64,000 nucleotides of DNA from Thermoplasmatales archaeon (lineage in GTDB: Archaea > Thermoplasmatota > Thermoplasmata > Thermoplasmatales > GCA-001856825). Both the position numbers and the translations under genes were made by a program. This document shows, piece after piece, positions 39,478-46,015 of the stretch. Every line of letters starts with the position of its first letter. Position 1 is the first letter of the stretch. The stretch is from the NCBI GenBank assembly GCA_026127935.1, contig JAJSLL010000003.1, positions 46,781 to 110,780 on the forward strand. Reading direction: 5' to 3'. The notes below the pieces were generated by a model. That model did not search any database. It was not told the DNA's origin and saw only the letters and a program-made list of their open reading frames with translations.

Positions 39478-40254
39478 TTATAGAAGTCTTGAAACTTCTG
39501 TTTCAAGCGGATCTACTTCAATGTCCACGCTTAATACCTGTTCGTGTTCGCTGAGTACCTCATCGATCGTATCTTCTATGATCTTGCTGAAGGAATCGCT
39601 GTATTTGCCGTAAAGTGTTTCGTACAGTTTCAATTGGCTTTCTATGGTTGCTTCAATGTCTTCCTTTATCCTTGCGTTTATCTCTCTGAGTGATTCGAAT
39701 TCGTTGTTGTCGTAAACTTCCATGCTGTCCGTCTCTTTCCTGAGCTGCACAAGAGTTCTATCGGCGACTTCTTTCCTGTTGTCTTCGAACTCGAAAGGTC
39801 TCACTGCAAATATTTTGAATGGTACTTTTTCCCCTTTCATCAATTTAACCATCTCAACAGTTCCTCCTGATCCCGTTCCTCCACCCAGTGCCGTTACTAC
39901 GAGCACCAGATCTGCACGTTTCAGTAGCTGTATATCGATCAGTTTGGAGTCTTCTCTGAAAGCTTTCTTTGCAACTTCGACATGTCCACCAGAGTCCCCG
40001 TTGCCGAGAATATATTCCCTTCCGATGTTCACCGTGGTGACATCGCTTCGTTTGGCATTCGAAAGGGCATCTGTGTTGAGGCAGTACTGATCGACTTCTC
40101 TTCTCTTCTTGTTGAGTTCCGACACAATATTGCAACCTCCGCCGCCTATACCAACGCACACTATGGTAGGTTCCAGAATTTTTCTTTCTTTCTTTAGACC
40201 TTTAGTCAGTTTGTACAATATTTGAGTACTTATGTCATCTATCACTTTTTTCAC
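39478..40254 (-). CDS. Short FtsZ/tubulin-superfamily GTPase-like protein lacking a recognisable T7 loop and canonical C-terminal domain
   Basis: 258 aa; T1-like VCVGIGGGGCNIVSEL, NTDA, tubulin signature VTALGGGTGSGGTVEMVKLM, AVRPFEFEDNRKEVADR; the remaining ~80 aa are helical/acidic and lack an NxDFxD motif. Confidence 0.8.
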   Translation of the reverse strand: MKKVIDDISTQILYKLTKGLKKERKILEPTIVCVGIGGGGCNIVSELNKKRREVDQYCLNTDALSNAKRSDVTTVNIGREYILGNGDSGGHVEVAKKAFREDSKLIDIQLLKRADLVLVVTALGGGTGSGGTVEMVKLMKGEKVPFKIFAVRPFEFEDNRKEVADRTLVQLRKETDSMEVYDNNEFESLREINARIKEDIEATIESQLKLYETLYGKYSDSFSKIIEDTIDEVLSEHEQVLSVDIEVDPLETEVSRLL

Positions 40255-40657
40255 CCCTCTGTTTTTCCTCGCCCCTCTCTTCGAAAGGAAGATCCTCGAA
40301 ATTCAAAAGGTTCCTATCGTCAAGATAGCCCCTGACGAGCTTGTTGAGCCACATCGGCAGGAAGTGTTCTTCATTGACTTTCCGTATTATAAACTCTATT
40401 GCATCATATCTGTCCTTGAAGAGACCCTTCGACACCATCTGATCCAAAGTGTTTAGAGTTGCTTTCGAAAGTTTTACTTCACTGTCTTCCACCGAGGGTT
40501 GTCGTGTCTGAGGGTGCTGTATGTACTCATAGACGGCCGCCCTTATCAGTTCCGATTTTGACTTATACTTGAGCGAAGTGCTAAGAAAGTCGTTTATTTC
40601 GTCATCTTCCTGCGGTGTAAGACGAAGTGCTATTCTCCTGGTACTATTAGAATCCAC
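40235..40657 (-). CDS. Ribbon-helix-helix transcriptional regulator (possibly two RHH-like segments), CdrS-like by context
   Basis: Start refined from 40762 to GTG 40657: VDSNSTRRIALRLTPQEDDEINDFLSTSLKYKSKSELIRAAVYEYIQ (RHH) followed by EVKLSKATLNTLDQMVSKGLFKDRYDAIEFIIRKVNEE. Overlaps the FtsZ-like gene by 20 nt. Confidence 0.75.
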   Translation of the reverse strand: MDSNSTRRIALRLTPQEDDEINDFLSTSLKYKSKSELIRAAVYEYIQHPQTRQPSVEDSEVKLSKATLNTLDQMVSKGLFKDRYDAIEFIIRKVNEEHFLPMWLNKLVRGYLDDRNLLNFEDLPFEERGEEKQRGEKSDR

Positions 40658-40852
40658 TTGGAACCAATCCTCTCTATAAAGACATAAATGTATCTGTATA
40701 TAAATATTTCTAATCAAGGCACACAAATAATTTAGTAGTTTCCTAAAATAATAATAAATCAAAAATAATGTAAATTAGCTGTAGTACGCCTTATTTGCGT
40801 TAATATGCCAATTTTCAAATTACCTATTTGTTTGACAAGTTCTTTCGCAGTT

Positions 40853-40880
40853 GTCATACAATGTAATTACATTGAATGAC
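40853..40880. promoter_or_regulatory. 28-bp near-perfect palindrome, candidate operator
   Basis: GTCATACAATGTAATTACATTGAATGAC; central CAATGTAATTACATTG (40859-40874) is a perfect 16-bp palindrome and the full 28 bp has one mismatched pair; intergenic between divergent RHH and aIF2beta genes. Confidence 0.65.
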
Positions 40881-40890
40881 GCTGTTTGCC

Positions 40891-40901
40891 ATTTGTCAAA
40901 T
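40891..40901. promoter_or_regulatory. Candidate operator 11-mer ATTTGTCAAAT (copy 1)
   Basis: ATTTG-T-CAAAT inverted repeat; identical 11-mer found at 45001-45011 upstream of ftsZ. Confidence 0.5.
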
Positions 40902-40971
40902 ATTGTCATTCATTTGGCTAAAAGTTGTCAAATTTTGTAAAAATTATTTAATCAGATTCCTATTTCACTCC

Positions 40972-41589
40972 GTGGATGAACAGAATTATACGGACCTTCT
41001 GAAGAAGGTAAAATCTTCTGTGCAGAAGAGAGAAGAAATGAAGAGATTTCAAATTCCTAAACCTGAAACAATCACAGAAGGAAAGCTCACAATAATAAAA
41101 AACTTCAGAGACATAGTTGGCGTCATAAATAGGGACGAGTCACATATTTACAAGTATCTCATCAAACAGTTTGGACTTTCTGGAGATGTTGCGGACGGTA
41201 GACTGATATTCAAGGGAAAGCCGCCAGAAGGCAGTATTGAAAAAGCGTTCCAGGAGTACCTTAGAATCTACGTCCAATGTTATGAGTGCGGAAATTTCGA
41301 CACAGAAATGATCAGGGAGAACAGGAATGAACTGATAAGGTGTAAGGCCTGCGGGGCTGAGAGACCGCTCTTTGCACATAAAGAGATCAAGTATTCAGAA
41401 GGAAAGATAGAGGAAGGCAAGACATACGATCTCGAGATCACTGACCTCAACAGGGACGGAGATGGAATTTCGATAAAAGGAGACACAACGGTCATAATCC
41501 CGGGAGCAAAGAAAGGGCAGAAAGTGACTGTCAGGATCGATAGGATCAGAAAGAATTATGCGCTTGGCATTTTGGTGAAGAAGGCTTGA
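40972..41589 (+). CDS. Translation initiation factor aIF2 beta with C-terminal TRAM domain
   Basis: Start refined from 40876 to GTG 40972. KPETITEGKLTIIKNFRDI, zinc ribbon CYECGNFDT...IRCKACGAERP, then TRAM-like YDLEITDLNRDGDGISIKGDTTVIIPGAKKGQKVTVRIDRIRKNYALGILV. Confidence 0.92.
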   Translation: MDEQNYTDLLKKVKSSVQKREEMKRFQIPKPETITEGKLTIIKNFRDIVGVINRDESHIYKYLIKQFGLSGDVADGRLIFKGKPPEGSIEKAFQEYLRIYVQCYECGNFDTEMIRENRNELIRCKACGAERPLFAHKEIKYSEGKIEEGKTYDLEITDLNRDGDGISIKGDTTVIIPGAKKGQKVTVRIDRIRKNYALGILVKKA

Positions 41590-45022: not shown

Positions 45023-46015
45023 ATGCCTGATAACGAAACTTTTCAAGATAACGATGCTGAGTTGATTGAGTTATTAAAAGGCCTGAAAACAAGCATCAAA
45101 ATTTTTGGGTGTGGGGGTTCAGGGTCAAATACTATTACTAGGATAATGGAGGAAGGAATACAGGGTGCTGATATTATTGCTGCCAATACTGATGCCCAGC
45201 ACCTTCTTCTCACTCAAGCATCCAGGAAGATTCTCCTTGGGAGAAGAACTACCAGAGGACTCGGGGCCGGTGCCATTCCTCAGATCGGCGAAATGTCGGC
45301 CAGAGAGGCGGAGATTGACATTAACGCTGCGGTAGAAGGAGCCGATATCGTATTCGTCACTGCAGGAATGGGAGGAGGAACAGGAACTGGATCTGCTCCG
45401 GTCGTAGCAGACGTTGCGAAGAAAGCTGGTGCACTGGTTATCTCGGTGGTGACAACACCTTTCAAGTCCGAAGGCGCAATGAGAAAAGAGAATGCCCTGT
45501 GGGGATTGGAGAAATTGAAGGAGAAATCAGACACAATCGTCATTATTCCTAACGAGAAGCTTTTGGAAATTGTTCCGAGGTTGCCTCTAAATGAGGCATT
45601 CAGGTACGCCGATGAGACGCTTATGAAATCTATAAAAGGTTTGACGGAACTAGTGACTAAACCGGGACTTGTCAACCTTGATTTCAATGACCTGAAAACT
45701 GTGATGAAAGACGGTGGAACTGCAATGATAGGAATGGGTCAGTCTGGTTCTCAAGACAGAGCTCTGGAAGCTGCAAAGAAAGCATTAAGTTCGCCACTAC
45801 TCGATCTCGAAGTCTCCACAGCAACATCCGCTATCGTTTCGGTGACAGGAAGCTCGAATATGTCTGTTGAAGAGGCTCATGCTGTTCTCGAAGAAGTAAA
45901 GAAGAGGATCAACCCAAATGCAAGGATAATATGGGGAGCAAGAATAGACGAATCTATGAAAAATGATATAAAGGTATTAGCCATACTGGTGGGAGCCAAA
46001 AACAAGTACGTTTAG
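45023..46015 (+). CDS. ftsZ: Cell division protein FtsZ
   Basis: 330 aa; IKIFGCGGSGSNTITRI, NTDAQHL, VTAGMGGGTGTGSAPVVADVAKK, T7-like VNLDFNDLKTVM. Confidence 0.96.
   Translation: MPDNETFQDNDAELIELLKGLKTSIKIFGCGGSGSNTITRIMEEGIQGADIIAANTDAQHLLLTQASRKILLGRRTTRGLGAGAIPQIGEMSAREAEIDINAAVEGADIVFVTAGMGGGTGTGSAPVVADVAKKAGALVISVVTTPFKSEGAMRKENALWGLEKLKEKSDTIVIIPNEKLLEIVPRLPLNEAFRYADETLMKSIKGLTELVTKPGLVNLDFNDLKTVMKDGGTAMIGMGQSGSQDRALEAAKKALSSPLLDLEVSTATSAIVSVTGSSNMSVEEAHAVLEEVKKRINPNARIIWGARIDESMKNDIKVLAILVGAKNKYV

Follow-up and report, generated by a model that had tools for sequence, protein, structure and literature searches.

The window, the whole 64,000-nucleotide stretch of Thermoplasmatales archaeon DNA analyzed here, encodes a ribbon-helix-helix (RHH) regulator and, directly downstream of it, a short FtsZ-like protein (Table 1). 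An earlier sequence-only reading of this DNA had noted that the two coding frames overlap by 20 nt, and the ORF coordinates give exactly that figure. The open frame of the short FtsZ extends 16 codons upstream without a start codon, and most congeners begin the protein approximately 13 codons earlier, resulting in a 65-nt overlap with the RHH gene.

Table 1. Features of the RHH-FtsZ locus and of the neighboring ftsZ gene (window positions).
Feature	Position	Strand	Basis
RHH (CdrS-like) regulator, 140 aa	40235..40657	-	N-terminal ribbon-helix-helix and helical C-terminal extension
NTD-only FtsZ2-type GTPase, 258 aa	39478..40254	-	ORF, Pfam, motifs, model, trees
Overlap of RHH and FtsZ coding frames, 20 nt	40235..40254	-	ORF coordinates
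T1 loop GIGGGGCN, aa 35-42 of short FtsZ	40129..40152	-	sequence
T4 signature loop GGGTGSG, aa 124-130 of short FtsZ	39865..39885	-	sequence
Long C-terminal helix, aa 189-240 of short FtsZ	39535..39690	-	AlphaFold2 model; motif audit, no NxDxxD
Conserved 22-bp element upstream of RHH gene, candidate operator/promoter element	40729..40750	-	genus conservation
TATA-like element AAATATTTATATAC, conserved in genus	40696..40709	-	read from sequence
Full-length FtsZ1-type gene, context, outside module	45023..46015	+	Pfam, trees

Domain structure of the short FtsZ and its RHH neighbor

Pfam assigned the tubulin GTPase domain (PF00091) to the short FtsZ at 70.5 bits, while FtsZ_C (PF12327) was found neither by Pfam nor by a local C-terminal HMM. 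The FtsZ at 45023-46015, used as a control, matched both domains (151.6 bits for the GTPase domain and 101.5 bits for FtsZ_C), confirming that a complete ftsZ lies nearby. Alignment of the NCBIfam FtsZ equivalog to the short protein was limited to residues 27-187. The segment PFEFEDNR corresponds to T5 (residues 153-160), the T6 asparagine is also intact, and a motif audit detected no T7 motif (NxDxxD). The protein continues for 98 aa after PFEFEDNR, not the approximately 80 aa first reported. The AlphaFold2 model (mean pLDDT 80.3) shows the N-terminal fold of FtsZ and then a single 52-residue helix, residues 189-240, the final part of which is of low confidence. This helix occupies the place taken in FtsZ by H7, T7, and the C-terminal domain, and the monomer model contains neither of the latter two. 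The top solved-structure match of the model in Foldseek was KpFtsZ (E 5e-13). The sequence-only description of a 258-aa protein lacking T7 and the C-terminal domain thus stands, and the window FtsZ is predicted to have an intact GTP-binding domain and to have lost its catalytic and polymerization half.

Of 11 genus genomes sampled, counting that of the window, 10 carry the same short frame, the one lacking it being just 52% complete. Each of the 4 further genomes of the window's family has it too, with identities across genus and family of 29-98%. The dN/dS ratio of the short FtsZ was approximately 0.06 for the closest pair, versus 0.02 for FtsZ1, and purifying selection was seen on both the RHH and the short FtsZ genes. 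The shared frame and the low ratio rule out a sequencing frameshift.

The window RHH matched the NCBIfam CdrS model (NF058555) at 29.3 bits (E 6e-7) against a cut-off of 100, and from this comparison is classed as a relative of haloarchaeal CdrS, not an equivalog. Its low-confidence model (pLDDT 64) places helices at residues 15-27 and 34-47, then at 65-76, 83-94, and 99-112. By eye, a second RHH domain seemed likely in the C-terminal extension, but Pfam returned only RHH_8 (E 0.13) in one of four segments, and this candidate was rejected. Upstream of the gene, the conserved 22-bp element has no second copy elsewhere in the genome when up to 3 mismatches are allowed. Several TTGTCA/ATGAC-like repeats occur at approximately 40790-40920, between the RHH gene and a divergent gene (40876-41589, +) for translation factor aIF2-beta, which carries a TRAM domain at its C-terminus; one TGTATGACA copy among the repeats is conserved across most of the genus.

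A paralogous cdrS-ftsZ2 locus in class Thermoplasmata

Across 295 Thermoplasmatota genomes, from which approximately 150 regions were fetched, we identified RHH and NTD-only FtsZ pairs at 105 sampled loci, every one in class Thermoplasmata. They occur in the window's family (f1), in f3, f4, f6, f7, the Methanomassiliicoccales-type family (f8), and most of f9-f22. We take f4 to be Aciduliprofundaceae, and genomes G017, G033, and G102 to be A. boonei, Thermoplasma volcanium, and Methanoplasma termitum, respectively. Counted from the first start codon, FtsZ ORFs of the pairs span 226-351 aa and RHH ORFs 118-183 aa. The two genes overlap or abut at 35 loci, lie within 150 nt of each other at 66, and are farther apart at 4. 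The RHH gene is upstream at all 105 loci; this adjacency is partly due to selection, since most loci were fetched via an RHH match, but approximately 22 (f1/f3/f4) were fetched via FtsZ, and all of these have the RHH.

The T7 motif was present in none of the 105 short FtsZs compared to 25 of 27 RHH-linked full-length FtsZs, while T4 was retained in 84 of the 105. With the C-terminal domain also missing, these counts fit the sequence-only suggestion of lost self-activated hydrolysis or polymerization, the half needed for both being gone. The FtsZ2-type C-terminal peptide was not found in the short FtsZs. A shared tail motif, VxLxLEV, was discarded because it occurs in f1 and f7 but is absent from other families. 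Three Methanomassiliicoccales-group loci (L130, L074, and L120) cluster with f8 loci in the tree. One f8 genome (G264, 96% complete) matched neither the short-FtsZ nor the RHH profile, unlike its relatives.

In other Thermoplasmatota, an RHH of mostly 75-102 aa precedes a full-length FtsZ with its C-terminal domain. In nearly all of 119 Halobacteriota genomes, the short-FtsZ profile matched best to a long frame of approximately 350-470 aa, the shorter matches including one at a contig end. Three Aciduliprofundaceae genomes (G017, G021, and G024) carry both an RHH-full and an RHH-short locus, and RHH-full loci are present also in f7, f9, f13, and f16. A long RHH accompanies some full-length FtsZ2 proteins too, so the extension is not an exact tracker of truncation. 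These data show that class Thermoplasmata carries a paralogous counterpart of the archaeal cdrS-ftsZ2 locus. In it, the RHH gene lies directly upstream of a gene for an FtsZ2-type protein reduced to the GTP-binding domain and a helical tail, and the orthologues are short across the class.

In AU tests, grouping of the short FtsZ with FtsZ1 was rejected (p 0.011), and with it an FtsZ1 origin, while placement with Thermoplasmatota FtsZ2 (p 0.16) and a single clade of all short FtsZs (p 0.158) were not rejected. The short FtsZ was nested with the class FtsZ2 in an LG+G4 NTD tree (support 93). A mixture-model NTD tree left the backbone unresolved and placed 25 of 27 short rows in one starred clade (97/97); the short FtsZs of L236 and L240 (family f22) lie outside the main short clade, and their RHHs join the short-linked RHHs. 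The RHH tree splits exactly by partner, with 42 short-linked or Thermoplasmataceae sequences on one side and 16 full-linked sequences on the other (84/89, not starred). Because this holds even within G024, whose two RHH copies (L054 and L295) fall on opposite sides, RHH and FtsZ appear to travel as a pair. The RHH linkage, the trees, and the AU test all support the earlier identification of the locus as a counterpart of cdrS-ftsZ2 and point to descent from FtsZ2, not FtsZ1. The two genes seem to form a single ancient paralogous module, for which one duplication of the cdrS-ftsZ2 locus followed by truncation would be the simplest account. A T5 loop one residue shorter was considered as an FtsZ2 signature and dropped, as the counting was unreliable on FtsZ1.

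In the Thermoplasmataceae (G033 and others), the protein following the RHH is 244-281 aa long and has lost GGGTG (SGFGGSFAQ and similar), but is homologous (hhalign E 1.9e-16), and the pairing with the RHH is retained despite this decay. Genera g11, g25, and g9 gave no FtsZ match but retain an RHH of the same lineage as the short-linked RHHs, overlapped by an ORF of 157-179 aa. Its position and the RHH lineage fit the series, although hhalign against the short FtsZ gave P 0.01 and a probability of 3-4%. A published report that Picrophilus, Acidiplasma, and Ferroplasma lack FtsZ also fits (PMC11188069). Such stepwise motif loss could be read as a decaying FtsZ2 pseudogene kept by chance beside the RHH, but the dN/dS ratio and uninterrupted frames at the 105 sampled loci largely refute this, and we give it almost no credence.

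Genomes with a single FtsZ and the role of the pair

We detected FtsZ_C in none of 19 Methanomassiliicoccales-type genomes tested, and in 14 of the 19 the RHH-linked NTD-only FtsZ was the sole PF00091 match. Four of these 14 are single-contig genomes: G115, which had one additional match with the short-FtsZ profile, and G140, G183, and G188, in which the short FtsZ was the only FtsZ detected and both FtsZ_C and SepF were absent. The SepF profile was tested in 12 of the 14 and had no match in 10 (G073, G115, G140, G168, G183, G188, G206, G210, G253, and G287); G303 had a sub-threshold match, and a SepF was present in G317 (88% complete). SepF was found in all tested genomes of f1, f4, f9-f11, and f19 and in G033, and in the window family, Aciduliprofundaceae, and Thermoplasma the short FtsZ is accompanied by both full-length FtsZ and SepF.

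Some Methanomassiliicoccales-type genomes (L342-L346, L356) and Aciduliprofundaceae (L348, L349) contain another divergent FtsZ paralogue. It is mostly 260-300 aa long, its C-terminal region scores under the Pfam FtsZ_C threshold, and among f8 genomes it is distributed roughly as SepF is. G017 and G021 each carry seven FtsZ-superfamily genes, five with FtsZ_C, in genomes of 1.4-1.5 Mb.

The sequence-only reading had proposed that the short FtsZ may modulate or cap FtsZ1, or sense GTP for it. Presenting a GTP-bearing face only, it would dock against the T7-bearing face of FtsZ1, capping or poisoning filaments without hydrolyzing GTP. The lost half is indeed the T7-bearing one, the GTP-binding half is retained, and full-length FtsZ co-occurs with SepF in the three groups named above. 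However, G140, G183, and G188 have no FtsZ1, so there is nothing to modulate there, and the proposal fails as a general function. It is possible only where FtsZ1 exists, as in the window species with its three full-length FtsZ1-type proteins (so placed in the NTD trees), and overall we consider it unlikely. MciZ and SulA would offer a parallel, in that one filament face would be blocked if the capping model holds, but these FtsZ inhibitors are not FtsZ homologues.

The same single-contig genomes raise the possibility of a minimal structural FtsZ, in which the NTD-only protein would support division through non-canonical contacts, for example via the long helix, or with a replacement partner, and the RHH would do no more than regulate its expression, in the way CdrS regulates ftsZ2. 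In complete Methanomassiliicoccales-type genomes no FtsZ other than the short one was found, its GTP-binding residues are retained in most families, purifying selection is strong, and the Snf7/ESCRT-III profile had no match in f8. That profile is insensitive, its only control match (Sulfolobus) being below the cut-off, so another division system may be present. Given also that the T7 loop, C-terminal domain, and FtsZ2-type C-terminal peptide are all absent, that SepF is missing from the same genomes, and that Thermoplasmataceae versions have lost the GTP motif, we regard a structural role as rather doubtful.

The gene order and overlap, together with the RHH C-terminal extension, resemble a toxin-antitoxin-like pair, with the RHH as antitoxin and the truncated FtsZ as a division-blocking toxin; weak Pfam matches of the RHH include an antitoxin family. 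Since the loci and trees fit class-wide vertical inheritance, selection is strongly purifying, and the target FtsZ is missing in some hosts, this analogy seems very improbable.

We favor, tentatively, an account in which the short FtsZ binds GTP and acts as a partner to the RHH regulator. FtsZ2 would have been duplicated and truncated once, giving a protein that no longer forms a Z-ring and binds GTP without hydrolyzing it. FtsZ GTP hydrolysis requires the T7 loop supplied by a neighboring subunit, so the short FtsZ alone should bind GTP but not turn it over; likewise, an ordinary Z-ring is unlikely because the C-terminal domain, T7 face, and FtsZ2-type terminal peptide are lacking. Its nucleotide state, its long helix, and contact with the C-terminal extension of the RHH would together tune how the RHH binds DNA, with its own promoter and possibly division genes as targets. 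In Thermoplasmataceae, where the GTP site has decayed, only a protein-partner role would remain.

The constant RHH neighbor, including at the loci picked by FtsZ, argues for the partner account without demonstrating it. Loss of T7 with T4 mostly kept, the RHH tree split by partner type, purifying selection on both genes, and persistence of the pair in genomes without FtsZ1 and SepF are all consistent with it. So are the Thermoplasmataceae proteins that lack GGGTG but still adjoin the RHH, and the overlapping ORF at the same position in FtsZ-less genomes. On the other hand, RHH-ftsZ2 linkage is ancestral (PMC7439475, PMC8178401), and inherited co-expression alone could suffice. Haloarchaeal CdrS, which regulates transcription of ftsZ2 and other division genes, acts at DNA, and our literature search found no report of it binding FtsZ2. 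The long RHHs beside some full-length FtsZ2 proteins and the poor hhalign score of the 157-179 aa ORF also weigh against a partner. A more specific version, in which an FtsZ2 relic would be the GTP-sensing, ligand-binding partner of an RHH transcription factor, kept in some archaea after loss of every filament-forming FtsZ, is possible but should be interpreted with more caution.

Relation to described FtsZ systems

The cdrS-ftsZ2 operon is known from Halobacterium and Haloferax (PMC7439475, PMC8406309). The window locus resembles it in that an RHH gene whose product matches the CdrS model immediately precedes, in the same orientation, a gene of the FtsZ2 lineage, but differs in its short FtsZ without T7 loop, C-terminal domain, or C-terminal peptide, and canonical loci of the phylum mostly have an RHH of 75-102 aa versus 118-183 aa (first-start ORFs) in the short-FtsZ pairs. 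Full-length archaeal FtsZ2 proteins, including those of the second RHH-FtsZ locus of G017, G021, and G024, are nearest in the tree and share the T6 motif (xDNN/xEND) and the upstream RHH; at 343-395 aa they have T7 and the C-terminal domain, while the short FtsZs (226-351 aa) do not.

FtsZl1, with a long coiled coil and an extra domain, and FtsZl2, with a C-terminal region of approximately 300 aa and T7 kept (Makarova and Koonin, PMC2875224), are also FtsZ-superfamily proteins with an altered C-terminal half. Compared by description, neither is reported as NTD-only with an RHH partner, and identity with either was rejected on architecture, as the window protein ends after one helix. The same authors noted archaeal FtsZ paralogues lacking functional motifs (PMC2875224), and published work already covers cdrS-ftsZ2, CetZ, the FtsZl families, and the loss of FtsZ within Thermoplasmata. 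We found no description of an RHH and NTD-only FtsZ family in the open-access articles searched.

In several Thermoplasmata, FtsZ was reported without SepF or PRC-barrel proteins (PMC11188069). Genomes with only the short FtsZ could easily be scored as FtsZ-positive, which may explain these FtsZ-positive, SepF-negative cases. How Methanomassiliicoccales-type archaea divide becomes a direct question if the one FtsZ detected in them is without its catalytic and polymerizing half and SepF is missing, and it can be addressed in cultivated Methanomassiliicoccales and Aciduliprofundum. If our reading is correct, FtsZ can drop its filament chemistry and survive class-wide as something else, which suggests either a division-ring protein turned regulator's partner or a minimal new machine.

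The window genome encodes further FtsZ-like proteins. The FtsZ1 at 45023-46015, followed by secE-, spt5/nusG-, L11-, and L1-like ORFs (named from translations), terminates directly after its C-terminal domain (KNKYV) and has neither linker nor terminal peptide, whereas VDSV/IDSV-like peptides close the two remaining FtsZ1-type proteins of the genome (L001, L002). Outside the window, on contig C9 (G000, L005:1390-1917, +), a second reduced FtsZ-like ORF of 175 aa follows a Cdc6/AAA-like ORF. It has kept T1 and lost T4, is distinct from the RHH-linked short FtsZ, and has relatives of approximately 250 aa in the family (L357, L358).
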